A DNA stretch of 64,000 bases from Crambe crambe. Lineage: Eukaryota; Porifera; Demospongiae; Poecilosclerida; Crambeidae. Each line of letters starts with the position of its first letter. The stretch's first letter is position 1. The translations under genes were made by a program, and so were the position numbers. Under the pieces are notes generated by a model. The model was not told the origin of the DNA. It did not search any database and saw nothing but the letters and a program-made list of their open reading frames with translations. Positions 23,081 to 38,236 of this stretch are shown piece by piece. Location: assembly GCA_963924555.1 (NCBI GenBank), contig OZ004583.1, positions 8,942,582-9,006,581 on the forward strand, written 5' to 3'.

Positions 23081-23423
23081 TTTAATAACTAGCACTGCAC
23101 AGAGCTGATGCTGAACTTCATGCATACGTACTGTGTTGTAAACACAAGTACTGTATGATATGTAAGTTTTGCAATGTCTATTTTGATTGGTATTGAGCAA
23201 CAGCATTATTTTTAATTCATAATTACGCCACACAAAATTTTATTCCGGTTCCAAATGAATATTTTGTCAATACCATGCACATCTCAATAGCAGCTATTGT
23301 ACATAAGTCTGCAAAGGACTTATGAATAACAATACGTATTATTATTATTTCTGACTCATGATCTCATGTAGCTATGATTATAAGCAACAGGTAGATATTT
23401 GTGCCACACAAAAATCTCAGTTA

Positions 23424-23545
23424 TATGGTGGCTTTTTAGGGCCACTTCCTTCTATTTCATTTCCATGTACTTCCATTCCATTTCCATCCTACTTCCATCT
23501 CACTTCCATCCTACTTCCATCTCACTTCCATCCTACTAAGCATGC
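23424..23545 (+). repeat. Left terminal inverted repeat, copy 1
   Basis: Begins TATGGTGGCT, then gggccacttccttctatttc and a run of cttccat-type 10-11 bp units ending tactaagcatgcgcaaatgg. It is the complement of 26,678-26,802. Confidence 0.9.
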
Positions 23546-23589
23546 GCAAATGGTGCACGCATTATAATTAATGCACACCAGGTACCAAA

Positions 23590-25288
23590 ATGGACTCAGC
23601 TGCAGCTCGTGAGAATGTATTTTGAGGCAGGATTTTCTTATAGTGTCATCTTAAGATTTTTAAAGGGCTTACATGGTATGACTTTATCTCTCAGAACTTT
23701 GAAAAGGCTATTACGAAAAATGGGTTTGAAAAGAAGAGGTATATCCACCAATATCGTACTTGCTGAAGACTTTATACAGGTATAAATTATAGTTACAGGT
23801 GGAAAACCAGCCAATTAATTTTTCTTCGATTTAGGCTGAGCTCTATGAGTCTGGATCACTCCTGGGATACCGAGCTATGCACTTCAGGTTACAACAACAT
23901 GGGCTTAAAATATCCAGGTTTGTGTAAAAGCACACACTGGCAAAATGGCTGGGTAGCATATCAGTCACATTAAATAATCTTGGGTGCTTTCACGTGTGGT
24001 TTTCTAGAGAGGAGGTTCGGCTACTGCTTGGATTATTGGATCCAGTAGGGGTGGCTGTTCGGAGAAAGAGAAGACTGAACAGGAGGGTGTATTCATCTAA
24101 GGTGTTTATGGATTATAGAGAATGGGATATTTTTCAATTTATCCTCTTCACCTAGGGCCCTAATCATTGCTGGCATATAGATGGCAATGATAAATTATTG
24201 CGGTATGGTTTTGCTATCCACGGAGCAATCGATGGGTAAAATAGTATAACTCTCTCTAATTGTGGACTACTGATTATTACTGTAGTTATTCAAGAAAAGT
24301 GTTATGGTTAGAAGTCTCTCCTACAAATAAGGATTCTAAGATCATTGCAGGATATTACTTGCGGGCAGTTCAAAACTATGGTGGTCAAGGTTATAGTACT
24401 TGATCATTTTATTAATCCATATTATATTTTGATAGGGTGTCCGAAGATTGTACGAGCTAACAAAGGCACAGAGAATGCTAAAATTTCATTTTTGCAACCT
24501 TTCTTGCGCTATCAAGGAACTAATGGAAGAGATAACTTACCAGAGAATACTTTTCGTTACGGTAGATCGGTTAATAATCAGGCAAGTATATACATGCAGG
24601 CAGTCCCGGTTGTTACATGCTGTATAATTAACATTTGCAGAGAATCGAGCGTTTTTGGGGAAGTTTGTATCAGTGGTTCAATGGGTTTTGGATAGACTTG
24701 TTTAAGGTATATAGCTGTATTATAGCAACTTTACTGTTTTGGTACTGGGAGGTTAATATTATCTCTAAATATAGACTCTACTGGATAAGGGTTACTACCA
24801 AGATGCCAATATCATTCACAGGTATTTAACAATCGATTATGGCTAGCTATTATTTTTGTTATACATTTCATTAAGGGAGTGTTTGAAGTTTTCATTTATG
24901 GGAGTTCTACAAGCTGGTTTAGATAGAATGAAGAACGAATGGAACAGGCATCGAATTCGCTCTAACAAAATCCATCCAAATGGAATTCCAGACTATTTAT
25001 ATCATTTACCCCAGCACAGAGGTATTTTTTTTATATTTTTAATTCAACTTTGCCACCTTACACCTACTCCAAATAGGACTCCAGGACTATTCTTGTGCTT
25101 GCAATGATGCTGACCTAAATGTATGTTGGCAATATGCTTCTGACAAGCCAGCATCCAATATCCCTGAGTTTGTCACTCTAGCTGAAATTTTAATGGAAGA
25201 GGAGGATCTTCAAGTACCTTCCAATGGAATGGAAGCATTATCACTGTACATTGACCTCGTTAATCTGATTACCCAGACTAACACTTGA
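23590..25288 (+). pseudogene. DDE integrase-like gene of copy 1, inactivated
   Basis: Exons in order encode LYESGSLLGYRAMHFRLQQH (about 23,835), EEVRLLLGLLDPVGVAVRRK (about 24,009), GPNHCWHIDGNDKLLRYGFA (about 24,156), KIIAGYYLRAVQNYGGQ (24,330-24,389), CPKIVRANKGTENAK (24,438), RIERFWGSLYQWFNGFWIDL (24,641), CLKFSFMGVLQAGLDRMKNE (24,880) and a Cys/acidic end to TGA at 25,288. Order and motifs match animal 'integrase core domain' proteins with HIDG, RADRGTEN and RIExWW signatures, the presumed D-D-E triad; the role would be DNA cutting and joining. Defects: the N-terminal exon (ATG 23,590) runs into a stop after 11 codons, and the second Asp is Asn (RANKGTEN). It probably makes no active enzyme. 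Confidence 0.8.
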
Positions 25289-25435
25289 CATTGAATCACA
25301 CACCCAAGAAACATTAAATGAAATGGTCTTTGAATGAGGATGTATAGTTGATGACAGACAGAAAGTATAAGTAAACAAGGATGAAGGACATAGTTTGATG
25401 ACATGTGAATTGAGCAGTCTGATGATGAAGCTTAG

Positions 25436-26125
25436 CTAAAGCAAGTTGCACAGTGCCTTTAAAAAATGTGTTGCTGGTATTCGCAACTCCACACTTGTGA
25501 AGCACTGATCTATTATGGACTTTATTTCATCTCCTACGTGGGAAGTGGAAGGAAATGACCCCCCAGCAACTCTAAGTATAATAGTGTGGGGGGCCAATCC
25601 TTCCCACAGTGGTTTCCCTCCAAATAGCTCAAAAACAATGCAGGCAAGGGCATAAATATCAGAGCCCACCCCCACCATCTCCCCTCTCAGCTGTTCCGGA
25701 GGTTGAAATGATGGAGTTCCAGCCCTCATAGTGGTGCAGCTAGCAGTACCGCAATTCGTCAACATCTTCCCTAGCCCAAAATCAGCTAGAAATACATGAA
25801 AAGTTTGTTCTTCAATCTATGAGAGAGAGAGAGAGAGAGAGAGACTACTGACCAGGCCTATTCATATGCTCTAGCTAACTAGACTATATACTTACCATAA
25901 CATTCTCAGGCTTCAGGTCAAGGTGTACCATTAGAGGGGAATGGCCATGCCCAGTGCCGTCAGCCATATAGTAGTCATAACCATCAGGAGAGGAATCACC
26001 CCACACGTATTCTTTGCATTTTTCATTCAAATCTGTATAAGAACTCTCTTTATGTATTGGAATTTTTACAGAGGGAAACGAGCGATCCAAGATTCCCTTC
26101 GCTTTCTCAATGTCAAACTCCATTC
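25436..26125 (-). CDS. Protein-kinase gene of copy 1 (partial catalytic domain)
   Basis: Two minus-strand exons: about 25,896-26,125 and 25,436-25,816 (stop TAG). The first ends VHLDLKPENVM at a gtaagt donor; HLDLKPEN is the kinase catalytic loop (Asp, Lys and Asn in place). The second starts IEEQTFHVFLADFGLGK with the Mg-binding DFG, then AGTPSFQPPEQLRGEM (activation segment end, PPE for APE) and SDIYALACIVFELFGGKPLW (helix F region). The style is of tyrosine-kinase-like Ser/Thr kinases. A glycine loop and VAIK lysine are not found upstream; 26,150-26,560 holds only a possible exon (FMRAARAKKQKQSVDTG). Either the N-lobe is lost or I cannot see it. Convergent with the integrase gene. Confidence 0.7.
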
Positions 26126-26532
26126 TACCCACATTTATCTATTTAAAGAGAGCACTCATAGAACTAGCCAGCTTCAGAATATCTACCTTCATACCAAAAC
26201 TTGGCCAACCAATGGGTCCAAATTAGTAGTGGCACCAGTATCAACACTTTGCTTTTGTTTTTTTGCTCTGGCTGCCCTCATAAAGTCATTTAGTGCTATA
26301 CACAATATAGGATGAAAGATAGCACACCAAAGAGCTCCACAACGACTACCTTACCTTCTTCGCGCCTTGAGTCTGATCGCAAAGTCCGAGTAGTAGTACA
26401 ATGGCTACACTCACGTGGCACTGCAAGTAGGAAGTATAACTATCGACTCACCACACAGAAAAAATGTCTTTACCTTCACTCCTCGAAGCATTTGAAGTAA
26501 TGGTACATCTACAGTGGCAGCAAGAACTGCAT

Positions 26533-26650
26533 CGCGTCGACATTCTGATCTCTCTCTAGTCACTCCACGTGTTGGTGTGCTATAAATAGAGTAGACATTC
26601 TGATCTAGCTCTAGTCACTCCACGTGTTGGTGTGCTATAAATAGAGTAGC
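26533..26650. promoter_or_regulatory. Duplicated CACGTG + TATA-like block
   Basis: A unit of about 55 bp (gacattctgatc...ctctagtcactccacgtgtt, then ggtgtgctataaatagagta) occurs twice. Each has a CACGTG E-box and tataaata, which also reads tatttata on the minus strand. It lies between the right inverted repeat and the kinase gene, where the kinase promoter would be expected. The same cacgtgttggtgtgc motif is near the right end of copy 2 (35,248-35,263). Confidence 0.5.
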
Positions 26651-26677
26651 ATGCCTGAGATGCTTTTGCACATGCTC

Positions 26678-26802
26678 AGTAGGATGGAAGTGAGATGGAA
26701 GTAGGATGGAAGTGGGATGGAAGTGAGATGGAAGTAGGATGGAAATGGAATGGAAGTACATGGAAATGAAATAGAAGGAAGTGGCCCTAAAAAGCCACCA
26801 TA
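26678..26802 (-). repeat. Right terminal inverted repeat, copy 1
   Basis: Units of ggatggaagtgagatggaag and related, ending gaagtggccctaaaaagcca ccata. It has one 11-bp unit more than the left end. Confidence 0.9.
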
Positions 26803-26852
26803 CAGTTAAGATCCATAATTAGCTATACACTTTGCTATGGGTATGATTAGTT

Positions 26853-26884
26853 ACAAGGGCTAGGGCTAGGGCTAGGGCTAGGGC
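26853..26884 (+). repeat. (gggcta)n short tandem repeat
   Basis: Four to five copies of agggct. A one-base variant of the animal telomere hexamer, but short and internal, so an ordinary microsatellite. Confidence 0.7.
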
Positions 26885-31390: not shown

Positions 31391-33081
31391 ATGCACACAT
31401 ATGCGACACATATCATCACACATGAAATTATAACATGGATTCTGATTTGAAGATCAGGCTTGTCAAGCTATAGCTACCTTGAAGCTGGGTATTCCTACAA
31501 ACTGATTTTAAGATTTTTAGCTTGTCTCCATGGATTTTTTTGGTCACTGAGAACCTTGAAACGACTATACTACGTTGAGAAGAAGAGGCTGTGGTAGTGA
31601 TATCAGACTAGTGATTGATTCTGTTGAGGTTTGTTAGCTGTAATCATAATTCCCCATGTAGTCTGAACTTTCTCAATCTAGTTCTCCCCTTGGTTACCAT
31701 GTTATGCATCTCAGATTGCTACAAAGATATGGGCTTCAAGTATCAAGGATTTATAGAGTGATAGCTTTAGAATTGTTTCTTTTGGTGCAAAAATAATAGG
31801 GAGAAAGTTAGAATAATACTGTCATTCATGGATCCCGAAGGTGTGGCATTGGGGAAACAATAGGAGATTGTATTCATCCAAGGGAAATAGCCTCCTATAA
31901 CAGAATAGTGCATATCATACTCCTCTTGTATGTAATAAAGGGCCCGAACACCCAAACTATTGCTGGCATATCGATGGCAATGATAAATTGGATTTGAAAT
32001 CCACGGTGGCATCGATGGGCGAGTATTGAATCATAAAATATAACGTTCCAACTTCTATTCATGAAAGATTTGTGGCTAGAAATTTCTCCTACCATTGCAG
32101 GATAGCTACTATATTTAAAAGCTGTACAAAGATGTGGTAAATTGCTCTAATCAATGTCACCTATTTTTCATAGGATGTCCTAAAATACTACATTAATGTT
32201 ATCCACAGGTACGTACTTATTGCATAGCTGTGATTAGCTGTGCACTAGGATTGTTTGATGTAGCTATGCGAATATGCATTTATGAATGTTATCCAAGCTG
32301 ATCTAGACAGGATAAAAAGAATGTGGAATGGACCAATATAGTTCATAAATGGAATTCCTGACGAGTTGTATTACTTACATGAAGAGTTGTATTACTTACA
32401 TAAAGAGAGAGATAAAGCTATACATGAAATTTCTCCTTTTTTGCTATTAGCTAACCTTCATTCAGCTAGGTTATGAAGATTCACAATTGTGAGATAACGC
32501 TGATCTGCAGTTATGTAAGTTAGTGAAAAGCCACAGTCCAATGCACCAGAATTTATAAAGTTATGGTAGAGGAGGAAAACCTATCCATCAACCTTAGAAG
32601 AAGCATTATCACTGTATATTTAATTCACCACATTAGCATGATATGAGAAGTACAGAACTGTTGAAATGTTTAATGAATGATAGGAGGAAAAAAATCAATT
32701 AATTAGAACAATAGAGCCGGGATGCTGCTGTAGCCCTTCTTTCGGTAGGAATAAAACACATGCTCATGATCTTATTGGGGAGATAGGAAAACTTCCCCCT
32801 GCTACCTTCAAAATGATGGTGCTTTGCACAAAGATACGCACAGGCATGACTATATTTATAGAGTAGAAGTAGGTTGGAAATGAAGTGGAAATACCTTGAA
32901 TAGAGTGGAAGTGGGTTAGAATTGAAGTGGAAATATTGTATACGAGTGGAATAGGGGTGGAAGTAGATTGGAATTGAAGTGGAAATATCACATTAGAGTG
33001 GAATAGAGGTGGAAGTAGGTTGGAATTGAAGTGGAAATACCGTATTAGAATGGAAGGAAATGGCCCGAAACAGCCACCATA
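31391..33081. mobile_element. Integrase-plus-kinase element, copy 4, left-truncated
   Basis: The right end is intact (ggaagtaggttggaattgaa repeats, ending ggcccgaaacagccaccata at 33,081). There is no left TATGGTGGCT end; recognisable element sequence begins where the segmental duplication stops (about 31,391). Integrase pieces: MDSDLKIRL (31,437), LEAGYSYKLI, REKVRIILSFMDPEGVALGK-like (about 31,800), HCWHIDGNDKLDL (31,965), VIQADLDRIKRMWN (32,288). There are many frameshifts. A kinase remnant on the minus strand (about 32,765-32,830) reads TIILKVAGGSFPISP, matching HTIILRVAGGSFPSTS of copy 1. Confidence 0.8.
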
Positions 33082-33618: not shown

Positions 33619-35437
33619 TATGGTGGCTGATTCGGGCCACTTCCTTTCGCCTCATTTCCATTGTATTTCCATCTCAGTTCCATCCCAGTTCCATCCTACT
33701 TCCATTCAAACGAGCATGCGCAAATAATGGCACTCGAACACGTGTGAATTTATGAATCATGGATTCAGACTTCAAGCGAAGTCTTCTCAAGCTGTATTTT
33801 GAAGCTGGTTATCCTTACAAACTGATATTACATTTTTAGCTGTCCTTCATGGCATTGTGTCCTTCGCAAGAGGAGAAGAGGTATTACTTTTTAGCGAGTT
33901 TTACATGTGATAATCACTCTCTCAAATTGGTGCTCTACTTGGATATAGAGCTATGCAGCTCAAATTACAAGGATATGGACTTATACTATCAAGGCAAGGC
34001 TTCTTTTTTTAACTTGGTATTAAACTTAGCATAAATTTCCTATTAGGGAGAAAGTGAGAATACTTTTATCAGTAATGGATCCAGGAGGTGTGGCATCCAT
34101 AAAAAAGCACAGACTAAACAGAAGAGTGTATTCATCTAAAGTATTACAATTGCCCACCTAGCCACTTGTATTAGTGTTCTCCTCCTCCTTTACCGGGGTC
34201 CGAACTACTGTTGGCATATTGATGGATTTGCCATACATGGTGGAATTGATGGGTAAATTTGAATGGATTCTATGATGACAGGCATTGTCCACGGGTATAT
34301 TATTGCACTGTAGTAGCTAGCTATAGTTGCATTAGCTATGAAACTTAATATACATAGCTAATAGGGATTGCTTAAATTCTCCTTTATGAACGTCATAGCT
34401 AAAAGCTGATCTTGACAGAATGAAAACGATTTGGAACAGACATCATATCAGAGCCAATAGACAGTATGCAAATGGAATACCCAATGATTTATTTATCTGC
34501 AGAAAGAGCTCGAGGTACGTGTGCCACAAGCCTGTTTTATATATACCCTGTCATTTTTGTTCAGGAGTTGAAGATTATTCCCACGAGTGTGATGACACTG
34601 ATATTCAGCTTTGTTGGCAGTATGCATGTCAGAAACACCTTCCAACAGTCCAGAATTCTAACTCTTGCAGAAATACAGAAAATCATGCTTATTGCTGTAT
34701 TTTGATTTGATTCACCACATAAAAAATATTTAGTCTTTAGTTGAAATGCGTGATTTAAACATGAAAAATGATGCAGCGAGGTACCAGGAAAAGTTGAAAT
34801 AATGAAAATGGTTCAGTGACAATTGTATGAAATTGTTGCTCCATATAATTTAAGCAAGTTCACAAATATACTGTAATATGGAGGCTGTAGATGGTCGGAT
34901 AGTCGACAGGAACAGAACAATGGTGATGTTAGGAAGGTGGTTGGTCTGAGGGTGGTATTGGTTGACAGACCTTCCCACCCTGGCCTTTCTCCACTATGAT
35001 GCATGCAAGTGCATATACATATACATCAGTGCTGACCCCTATTGCCTTTCCCTTCAGCTGCTCCGGTGATTGAAAAGGAGGAGTGCCAGCCTGCATGCGC
35101 TCAGATTCTATTTTTAACCTCCACAATGGCAGCGTGATGGAGCAGACATAGTCCTTGACTTTCCTCTCTCCTCGTGGAACGAAGTACGTGTGTATCAGAC
35201 AATTATTCAGTAAGCTAGGCTACAGTAGAATGCACATGTGTGTGCACACACGTGTTGGTGTGCATTAATTTGAATGCCATTATTTGCGCATGCTTGTTTG
35301 AATGGAAGTAGGATGGAACTGGAATGGAAGTAGGATGGAACTGGGATGGAACTGAGATGGAAATACAATGGAAAATCAAATGCAATGGAAATGCATGGAA
35401 ATGAGGCAGAAGGAAGTGGCCCGAATCAGCCACCATA
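33619..35437. mobile_element. Integrase-plus-kinase element, copy 2, internally deleted
   Basis: Left end TATGGTGGCTGATTCGGGCC and right end GGCCCGAATCAGCCACCATA with ttccatc-type repeats inside each. Integrase parts on the plus strand: MDSDFKRSLLKLYFEAGYPY (33,761), EKVRILLSVMDPGGVASIKK (34,049), CWHIDGFAIHGGIDG with the NDKLLKY block deleted (34,210), then a jump to ADLDRMKTIWNRHHIRANRQ (34,405) and EDYSHECDDTDIQLCWQYAC (34,570). The regions with the second Asp and the Glu are gone. The kinase gene is reduced to AGTPPFQSPEQLKGK and YALACII on the minus strand (34,950-35,110). It can at most be moved by an enzyme supplied from elsewhere. Confidence 0.85.
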
Positions 35438-35574
35438 CTAAACAGCCACCTATGGTGGCTGAAAAGGGTCACTTCACTTCCATCAAACTTCCACTCTACA
35501 TCTGTACTTCCACCCTACTTCCACCCTATTTCCATCCTACTTCCACCCTACTTCCACCCTACTTCCACTCTAGG

Positions 35575-35712
35575 ATCACATGTGCAACACATGACCACCA
35601 TGTGACAACCTCCATGTGCTAACACGTGCTGTATCAAGTAGTCACTCCAGGATCACATGCACAACACATGACCATCACGTGACAACCTCCATGTGCTGTA
35701 TGAAGTAGTACC
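35575..35712. repeat. Two-unit direct repeat of about 67 bp inside copy 3
   Basis: ggatcacatgtgcaacacat, gaccaccatgtgacaacctc and catgtgctaacacgtgctgt recur with small changes. The units are rich in CACGTG/CATGTG E-box-like hexamers and lie between the left inverted repeat and the integrase start, so they may be its promoter. Confidence 0.55.
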
Positions 35713-35746
35713 AGTCATTTAATAATTGTATCTAGGCAATTGAAGA

Positions 35747-37294
35747 ATGGACACACTATCTCTTGTGAGAGGGTATTTTGAACGAGGATATTCCTATCAC
35801 CTAATACTCTGCTTTTTGGCTGGTCTTCATGACAAAGTGATATCAATGAGTACTCTAAAACGTCTCATATGTATGTGATCTCTAACAGTCTGTAGTACAT
35901 TTACTACTAGATTGAACTCAGCCATTCAGGTTCTTTACTTGGCTATCGTGCCATGCAAAGGAGACTGCTTCGCAAGTATGGAATAAGAATTCCTAGGTAA
36001 TACACTGTTCCAATTTTGTGCCCCAATTAATCAGACCTTTTACAGAGAAGAAGTGCGAATAATGCTTACAACCATAGACGCTGAAGGTGTGGCTATGAGA
36101 AGACAACACAGACTGAACAGAAGACAATATGTTGTTAAGGTAAAAGAGCTGCATAGTAGCAATGCATGGCAATTCACTATTAATATAATAGGGCCCCAAC
36201 TACTGTTGGCACATGGATGGAAATGATAAATTACTGAAGTATGGATTTGCTCTACATGGATGCATTGATGGGTAAGTTTCTCACAGAGGGCATGCATGCT
36301 CCTAACAGTTGAATACTCCATTACACAGTTTCTCTCGTAAGGTGATATGGTTGCAGGTGTCTCCTACTAATAAGGACTCCAGTGTCATTGCTGGGTATAC
36401 GGTAGGTTTGAATAGGCATATCTGTAGCTGTATATTATAGCTAATGAGTTTCTAAGATGTCCAAAGATACTGCGGGCTGATAGAGGCACAGAAAATGCAA
36501 GAGTAGCATATCTCCAACCCTTCCTGCGGCGAAACGATAGTGATAGCCACTCGGGGGAAAATAGCTTCTTTTATGGTCCAACCAGGTAAGAAGTCAAAAA
36601 TGTCTAGAGTAGCCCTAGGGTAAACAGCTTATTGTGTTTTGTATTCAGAGAATTGAGCGATGGTGGGGCAGTCTCTACCAATGGTGCACAGGATTTTGGA
36701 TAGATTTATTTCAGGTACATAGGTATAATATTTAAACGAAATGCATGGCATTGACAATGGAGTTGTAAAAATGCATAGCATCTTACAGCTGAAGGACTTT
36801 TTGACGACTCCAATTCTATTCATTGGTATACAATTATAGTTTATCATGTGCATTATTTAGTCTCTATACTACTGCTATTCAGTGATTGTCTGAAGTTCGC
36901 TTTCATGGACATTATCCAAGCTGATCTTACCACCACAGTAGAGGAGTGGAATACTCATCAGATCAGGGCGGGGCAGGGCACAATTGAAGGGATTCCTGAC
37001 GAGTTGTTTTTCTTGCCAGAAATGAGAGGTACCTATTAGGTTACTATGAGTACTGATTGTGATGTTTGTTTACTTCAAGGTTATGAAGATTATTCATGCA
37101 GTTGCTTTGATGAAGATGATCTTGAAGAATCGTGGGAGTATGGATGTGAAAAACCTGATGCCACAATCCCGCAGTTTACAAATCTTGTTCACATAATAAT
37201 GGGTGAAGAAAATCTTCACATGCCACAAAATGCTGCTGAAGCACTGTCATTTTATCTGGTATTAGCAGAAATAGTATCGAACATAGACTATTGA
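35747..37294 (+). CDS. DDE integrase-like transposase, copy 3
   Basis: Exon pieces: MDTLSLVRGYFERGYSYHLI (35,747), IELSHSGSLLGYRAMQRRLL (about 35,911), EEVRIMLTTIDAEGVAMRRQ (36,048), GPNYCWHMDGNDKLLKYGFA (36,193), FSRKVIWLQVSPTNKDSSVI (36,329), CPKILRADRGTENARVAYLQ (36,457), RIERWWGSLYQWCTGFWIDL (36,649), EGLFDDSNSIH (36,791), DCLKFAFMDIIQADLTTTVE (36,883) and YEDYSCSCFDEDDLEESWEY to TGA (37,080-37,294). The presumed triad is complete: Asp in HMDG, Asp in RADRGTEN, Glu in RIERWW. GT-AG introns of 50-100 bp separate the exons. The block matching YYLRAVQNYGGQ of copy 1 is missing between exons 5 and 6, so the join there is doubtful. The N-terminal part is a small helical, basic region. Possibly functional, more likely slightly damaged. 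Confidence 0.7.
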
Positions 37295-37365
37295 TGAAGA
37301 ACTATTGATGAAGAATGATATGGTATTAAAAAATGATCTGGTTGTTTGCTCTATCTAAAAAAAAA

Positions 37366-37940
37366 TCAATCCTTTGCCAGCAGGTACAGTTGCTTCAAGA
37401 TAGCTACAGCAGTGGCCCGCTCTTCAAACACAACAAAGCAAAGCTTTGTTATGTCTCTAACACGCTGGGGTAACTCAGCAGTGGAAGGATATTCCCCACT
37501 CACCACCTTAAAAATAACAGTGTGGGGGGATAAGCCCGGCCAAATCTTTTTCTCAGAAAACAGTTCAACAATGATGCATCCTACTGCATATACATCGGAC
37601 TCTGTGCCAACCATTTCTCCCTTCAGCTGCTCAGGGGGCTGGAATGCTGGAGAACCGGCATTCATGGTTGTTCTGCCAGCTCCAAGCAAGGAAGTAGCTA
37701 GCTTCCCTAAACCGAAGTCAGCCAGCCACAACTTCAGTGACCCACTCTCAATCTGAGATATGAAAGTGAATAACAACTTTGGCACTACAATGTAAATCTA
37801 AATGGGCAATAGGTGGGTCGCTTGTGTGCATTGAGCTATCTGCAGTAGAGGAGTTGTCTCGTTCAAATCAAACCCATTATGTTGCCACATATATTTGCTG
37901 ACACCATGGTAACCATTTATGGCCACACAAGCCAAAAGAG
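37366..37940 (-). pseudogene. Protein-kinase gene of copy 3, catalytic loop damaged
   Basis: The last exon (37,366-37,752) is open: IESGSLKLWLADFGLGKLAT, then AGSPAFQPPEQLKGEM, SDVYAVGCIIVELFSEKKIW and a C-terminal helix ending LLAKD before the stop. Upstream (about 37,790-37,850) PPIAHLDLH aligns with SPLMVHLDLKPENVM of copy 1 but the KPEN residues are lost. DFG and PPE are kept. Protein identity to the copy 1 kinase is moderate, so the two diverged for a long time while staying open. There is no visible N-lobe. Confidence 0.65.
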
Positions 37941-38236
37941 AAATAGCATTTACTGAAAAGGCCCCACACCATAATTGTTGCTAATTAAGTTAGAGTTATG
38001 CTACTCCCCTGCCTCTATCAGCTCATACCCAGCGATGACGCTGGAGTCAATGCAAACTATGACAGAATCTGTGTTTCTTCTTCAGATGGTCATATGACAA
38101 TCACGTGCCTGTCATGTGCACCTCCTGGAGTGGAAGTAGGGTGGAAATAGGGTGGAAGTAGGATGGAAATAGGGTGGAAGTACAGATGTAGAGTGGAAGT
38201 TTGATGGAAGTGAAGTGACCTTTTTCAGCCACCATA

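Follow-up and report, generated by a model that had tools for sequence, protein, structure and literature searches.

The sponge Crambe crambe carries, in a 64,000-nucleotide stretch of contig OZ004583.1 (positions 8,942,582 to 9,006,581, equivalent to G000:C5:8942582-9006581 and hereafter called the window), a DNA transposon in which a protein kinase gene lies opposite the transposase gene. This transposon, referred to as element A, occupies window positions 23424-26802 with the ends TATGGTGGCT...AGCCACCATA, and is flanked by the 6-bp target-site duplication cagtta at 23418..23423 on the left and 26803..26808 on the right. The left terminal inverted repeat (23424..23537, forward strand) begins with TATGGTGGCT and contains 11-bp internal repeats, and the right terminal inverted repeat (26689..26802, reverse strand) finishes in AGCCACCATA. 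The computed arms (23414-23537 and 26689-26812) are 124 nt long and 93% complementary; they overrun the ends of the element, so that approximately 114 bp of each arm fall within it. Element A is real, beyond chance, and the inverted ends, repeats of about 120 bp and cagtta duplication described in the original prediction, which had been made from the letters of this locus, were all borne out.

Both genes were located inside the ends (23606-26123 within 23424-26802), again as predicted. A spliced, integrase-like DDE transposase gene, with introns in its span, could be traced at 23606..25270 on the forward strand by matches to an intact transposase from a group of related copies (family 2, described below). 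The convergent kinase gene on the reverse strand is represented by a C-lobe exon with the DFG and PPE motifs (25436/25439..25816; PF00069, 4e-13) and by a second exon (25893..26123; PF00069, E 0.011), in which an element-specific N-terminal region is joined to the HLDLKPEN motif. In comparison with a full-length relative, residues 14-75 are followed on adjoining bases by residues 517-537, and the N-lobe is gone. Moreover, the second catalytic Asp of the transposase (in 24435-24509) reads Asn, and Asp is retained at this position in L017 and L018, the sister copies of element A. Judged from its sequence, element A is a dead, internally deleted copy, which is unable to be active by itself because its kinase lacks the N-lobe and its transposase has Asn for Asp. 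This state was missed by the original prediction, as were two further copies in the window. Just beyond the right end, a short array of AGGGCT units was observed at 26856-26884.

Both of the other copies have two ends, and in neither do the flanks match as a duplication. Element B (33619..35437) is related and shortened, containing transposase remnants at 33759-34647 on the forward strand and a kinase remnant at 34950-35096 on the reverse strand. In element C (35451..38236), transposase matches span 35750..37288 on the forward strand, the catalytic D, D and E being retained, and on the reverse strand a kinase C-lobe exon supported by a protein match and an open reading frame (37369..37758) is accompanied by upstream kinase remnants (37793..37977; relative residues 516-528 and 275-318) with the N-lobe missing. 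In both, the remnants of the two genes have the same convergent order as in element A. In addition, an isolated right end of this type of element, with tandem repeats, is present at 32858-33081 and ends in CAGCCACCATA at 33081; no left end matching it was found. A scan of the window against Rfam at gathering scores gave no match.

The occurrence of the kinase was further investigated throughout the genome (143,139,886 bases in 119 contigs). The sample of two-ended elements comprises A, B and C together with L017, L019, L020, L021, L022, L024, L026, L028 and L031, and two short end pairs (C1:4616625-4616810 and C6:4446991) lie outside it. An exact 6-bp duplication surrounds nine of these 12 elements (the exceptions being B, C and L021), and kinase sequence is present in 11, in every case convergent with the transposase. 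In 11 of the 12 elements, which lie at different chromosomal sites, the location and orientation of the kinase are constant, so that it is a part of the transposon rather than a neighbouring gene of the host. The expectation that nearly all copies sharing the ends would contain the kinase is in agreement with this count, and the contrary pattern, the same ends without a kinase, was seen in one of the 12 only. Seven additional loci without two recognised ends (L018, L023, L027, L029, L030, L033 and L034) also contain both genes in convergent orientation. Among the 22 fetched loci with a transposase of the same clade, 19 have kinase sequence, convergent in 18 of the 19.

The complete form is represented by family 2 (F2), a young group of six copies of approximately 5.3 kb that are 96-99% identical and are distributed on contigs C12 (two copies), C9, C15, C17 and C3. 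Exact 6-bp duplications surround four of them (L019, L020, L022 and L024); L021 has both ends with unlike flanks, and one end was found for L023. The inverted repeats of L020 are identical to each other over 161/161 bp. The transposase is open over 386 aa in four of the six copies, and the kinase over 661 aa in two (L022 and L024) when an A-rich exon is skipped; on the same proviso, both genes are open only in L022. Elsewhere in the kinase exons, two stops occur in L021 and frameshifts in L019 and L023. The splice sites of the predicted exon model are GT/AG in all six copies.

Profile searches with both family-2 proteins, which had been suggested as a check of the original prediction, revealed an integrase core in the transposase (PF24764, 4.7e-43) and a protein kinase domain in the 661-aa protein (PF00069, 2.9e-39). 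The catalytic residues D134, D192 and E232 are invariant across nine aligned transposases; a sequence search of the PDB with the transposase gave three chance-level matches only (E 0.67 or worse), and viral contigs yielded two pattern matches and no transposase relative. In the kinase protein, an element-specific N-terminal region of about 400 aa precedes the kinase domain, whose closest PDB sequences are CTR1 (5e-36), TNNI3K (1.2e-24) and B-Raf (9e-23). Because these are its nearest solved sequences, the domain is assigned to the TKL group as a canonical Ser/Thr kinase, and catalysis is predicted from its motifs: the glycine loop, VAAK, HLDLKPEN, DFG and PPE are all held and align with those of the three TKL kinases. 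Unlike the latter, the gene lies inside a transposon, and the N-terminal 367 aa of the protein have no PDB sequence match up to E 5 and no Pfam match above cut-off. Basic stretches noticed by eye in this region could serve as nuclear signals. Alpha-kinases are unrelated in sequence to PF00069 kinases, and an alpha-kinase identity was rejected, hmmscan of the 661-aa protein giving only PF00069, PF07714 and a sub-threshold ABC1.

With regard to classification, the published definition of IS3EU, as given in the accessible text of PMC10045372, includes 6-bp duplications and TA..TA ends, and the present element family fits it in both features and in its integrase-like DDE transposase. The IS3EU/GingerRoot termini TAYGG..CCRTA appear as TATGG..CCATA in element A, and TACGG is found in L022 (at one end) and L031; the 6-bp duplication and the PF24764 transposase with its invariant D/D/E agree as well. 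According to the same text, the duplications of Ginger1 and Ginger2 are 4 or 5 bp and those of IS481EU about 4, 15 or 25 bp, and membership in any of these groups was rejected on the basis of the 6-bp duplications. The word kinase does not occur in the accessible text of PMC10045372. On the other hand, IS3EU elements of rust fungi (Pucciniales) have been reported to carry TET/JBP and alpha-kinase genes, the latter opposite to the transposase, in one passage of the accessible text of PMC12730594 that mentions the kinase and does not analyse it. These fungal elements resemble those of Crambe crambe in their 6-bp duplications, TAYGG..CCRTA ends and a kinase opposite in orientation to the transposase; they differ in that their enzyme is described as an alpha-kinase, whereas in the sponge elements the kinase is a canonical one of the TKL type and a TET/JBP gene was not observed. 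Because that alpha-kinase gene is already in print (PMC12730594), the presence of a kinase in IS3EU is novel only in part, and the original statement that no known family carries a kinase is contradicted, albeit by another kinase family. In the literature searched, which lay outside Repbase entries and subscription journals and was in part available as partial text, a link between IS3EU and a kinase was found only in that paper, and neither a canonical TKL kinase, long co-inheritance, a HECT ligase nor an alternation of kinase and HECT was found for IS3EU.

The kinase appears to be an old component of these elements. In comparisons of its C-lobe, family 2 set against elements A and C shows a dN of 0.38 with saturated synonymous sites (proportions 0.77 and 0.755), and A set against C a dN of 0.44 with a dS of 1.85. 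Such dN values (0.38-0.44), alongside saturated synonymous sites or a dS near 1.8, indicate strong purifying selection on the kinase between families. Within family 2, the 15 pairs of copies show 3-11 changes at approximately 428 synonymous sites and 1-7 at approximately 1546 non-synonymous sites, the strongest signal of selection coming from L021 and L022 (11 synonymous and four non-synonymous changes). In a kinase tree, a single clade (support 97/96) unites six of the seven element kinases apart from ten sampled host kinases, and the split of all seven from these ten is supported at 76/78; the host controls are lower-scoring genomic kinase matches representing part of the host kinome. The transposases of nine kinase-bearing elements, assembled with family 2 as a guide from tblastn matches, some of the rows being short, also form one clade (100/100), with subgroups resembling those of the kinase tree: in both, L031 groups with L032, and F2, C, F1 and L030 stand apart. 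The two trees fit a single capture followed by joint descent, and the earlier suggestion that the kinase had been captured once and kept is consistent with this long joint divergence.

Related elements beyond this clade, whose second gene had not been foreseen by the original prediction, were found to carry a different enzyme. Nine loci (L039+L042, L040+L041, L043 and L044-L049), a non-random sample taken from the top single-frame transposase matches listed, were considered. A HECT ubiquitin ligase domain above the Pfam cut-off was found in six of them (L040, L045, L046, L047, L048 and L049), and one below it in L044 (E 0.0013); in L042, Pfam HECT is absent and phmmer gave 26 and 22 bits against the HECT proteins of L047 and L049. 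With L043 left out of the HECT scan, the transposase and the HECT or HECT-like gene face each other in seven of eight loci and are divergent in L039+L042. End structures on this side were established for L040+L041, a 5784-bp element with 20/20 matching end bases and CAGCAC at both sides; L039+L042 has long inverted repeats, and TAYGG ends were not found there. These elements likewise encode a PF24764 transposase and a second, protein-modifying enzyme in the same genome, and differ from the kinase-bearing ones in having a HECT ligase instead of the kinase, a transposase that is mostly a single open frame and a clade of their own, the transposase tree separating the two groups at 100/100. The examined HECT-side loci yielded no kinase, and the kinase elements included in the comparison yielded no HECT. 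The N-terminal parts of the kinase-type and HECT-type proteins resembled each other by eye, and a domain common to both was considered; it was rejected for want of support in a profile comparison (probability 0.2%, score 11.4, with shuffled columns reaching 17.4). As separate observations, L043 (G000:C1:8463000-8471500) contains the IS3EU transposase region twice in a 2.17-kb inverted duplication that is 99.4% identical, and an SH2 domain lies near one locus.

The convergent kinase, together with HECT in the sampled sister branches, suggests that a signalling enzyme is maintained by these IS3EU elements to their own ends. The original prediction had named transposition control or host checkpoints as a possible field of action for the kinase. 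We consider it probable that element A is a dead member of a two-gene IS3EU lineage whose kinase was captured once, has been kept by selection and acts on a host protein. Under this explanation, the kinase gene would have joined the lineage once, prior to the split of the families, and would have been retained as an aid to the spread of the element. The transposase would cut and join the DNA, and the kinase, a helper encoded on the other strand, would most probably be made along with it, act in the nucleus and phosphorylate a host protein that otherwise limits transposition or its repair. In the sister lineages, the HECT ubiquitin ligase would take this part, tagging a protein of that kind so that it is removed. 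As the enzymes found in this slot differ in their chemistry between sister lineages, the helper would act on a process that can be shifted by phosphorylation or ubiquitin, and a host barrier, for instance silencing or repair, is the most likely candidate.

Several observations weigh against this explanation. Among the two-ended elements, L028 (1.4 kb) has ends and duplication and no kinase match. L032 contains both genes in an arrangement that is not convergent; for L037 and L038, the fetched sequence contains a transposase of the clade and no kinase; in L060 and L061, kinase sequence was detected and a transposase was not; and L025, L035 and L036 contain end-like sequence with no gene match (for L025, according to DNA comparison and absence from the match lists). 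The N-lobe is missing from the kinase in all three window copies (A, B and C), and copies can therefore amplify or persist without a working kinase. The exon structure of the family-2 kinase is a predicted model, and the open kinase in L022 and L024 requires skipping of the A-rich exon 2: if this exon is included, the frame is lost in its A-runs in five of six copies, and L020, in frame through the exon, meets a stop before HLDLKPEN. The signal of selection is weak between L020 and L024 (four synonymous and seven non-synonymous changes), and the L033 kinase falls outside the supported element-kinase clade.

The main rival to a host barrier as the target is that the kinase acts on its own transposase, phosphorylation either activating transposition or limiting it by copy number or cell cycle, with HECT tuning the amount of transposase in the sister lineages. 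The co-divergence of the two proteins speaks for this idea, the kinase-bearing transposases being one clade with groupings that recur in both trees, and two convergent genes in one small element would permit co-expression. However, simple linkage likewise predicts co-divergence, and similar transposases would have to be governed by a different control logic in the sister lineages, where the enzyme works by another chemistry; we regard this alternative as a real possibility, somewhat doubtful on the present evidence. It is considerably harder to accept that the kinase is a passenger host gene, caught once and copied along with no benefit to the element. The kinase is indeed broken or truncated in many copies, and some two-ended copies, for example L028 and L026, are shortened, but the transposase is equally broken in many copies, and the presence of the kinase in nearly every two-ended element, its amino-acid conservation between families despite saturated synonymous sites, and the retention of catalytic motifs in families as distant as F2, L031 and L033 make a mere passenger improbable. 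Finally, a transposon that landed beside, or trapped, a local host kinase gene was conceivable when only the single copy of the first reading was at hand. This purely local association is refuted by the copies, since the same gene lies within the same ends on contigs C3, C5, C9, C11, C12, C15 and C17, and by the element-specific N-terminal region, whose 45 listed matches are mostly within known elements; practically no weight is left for it.

A broader and more speculative proposal, which we advance tentatively and would not presently favour, is that IS3EU possesses a dedicated slot opposite the transposase for varied protein-modifying enzymes, each disabling or redirecting the same host pathway that limits transposition. 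Within one genome, this slot would be filled by HECT ligases or TKL kinases, and in rust fungi, as far as the accessible report goes, by alpha-kinases. Viruses carry signalling enzymes of their own, and, should the kinase serve the transposon, the same would be true of a simple cut-and-paste element. If the slot proposal were true, we know of no other DNA transposons that wield signalling enzymes against the host in the manner of viruses. The alternation of kinase and HECT constitutes a natural comparison, in which both kinds of enzyme, encoded at the equivalent position of related elements within a single genome, would be expected to converge on a common process, and a host barrier to IS3EU transposition is therefore directly testable. 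It may also call for caution in annotation, as kinase and HECT genes counted among host families may partly belong to transposons.

Several additional observations were made in the genome. A more divergent relative of the kinase protein, about 35% identical in its N-terminal part, is present at L060+L064 (G000:C6:2383000-2391400), with no transposase detected in 8.4 kb. One 34%-identical match to the kinase C-lobe occurs at three sites (G000:C3:607078, 3284264 and 3558026) and possibly marks a further repeated element. Identical 76-bp end matches were also found approximately 40 kb apart on a 115-kb contig (G000:C7:17300, 57256 and 97208), a spacing that looks as if this contig were built of 40-kb repeated units.

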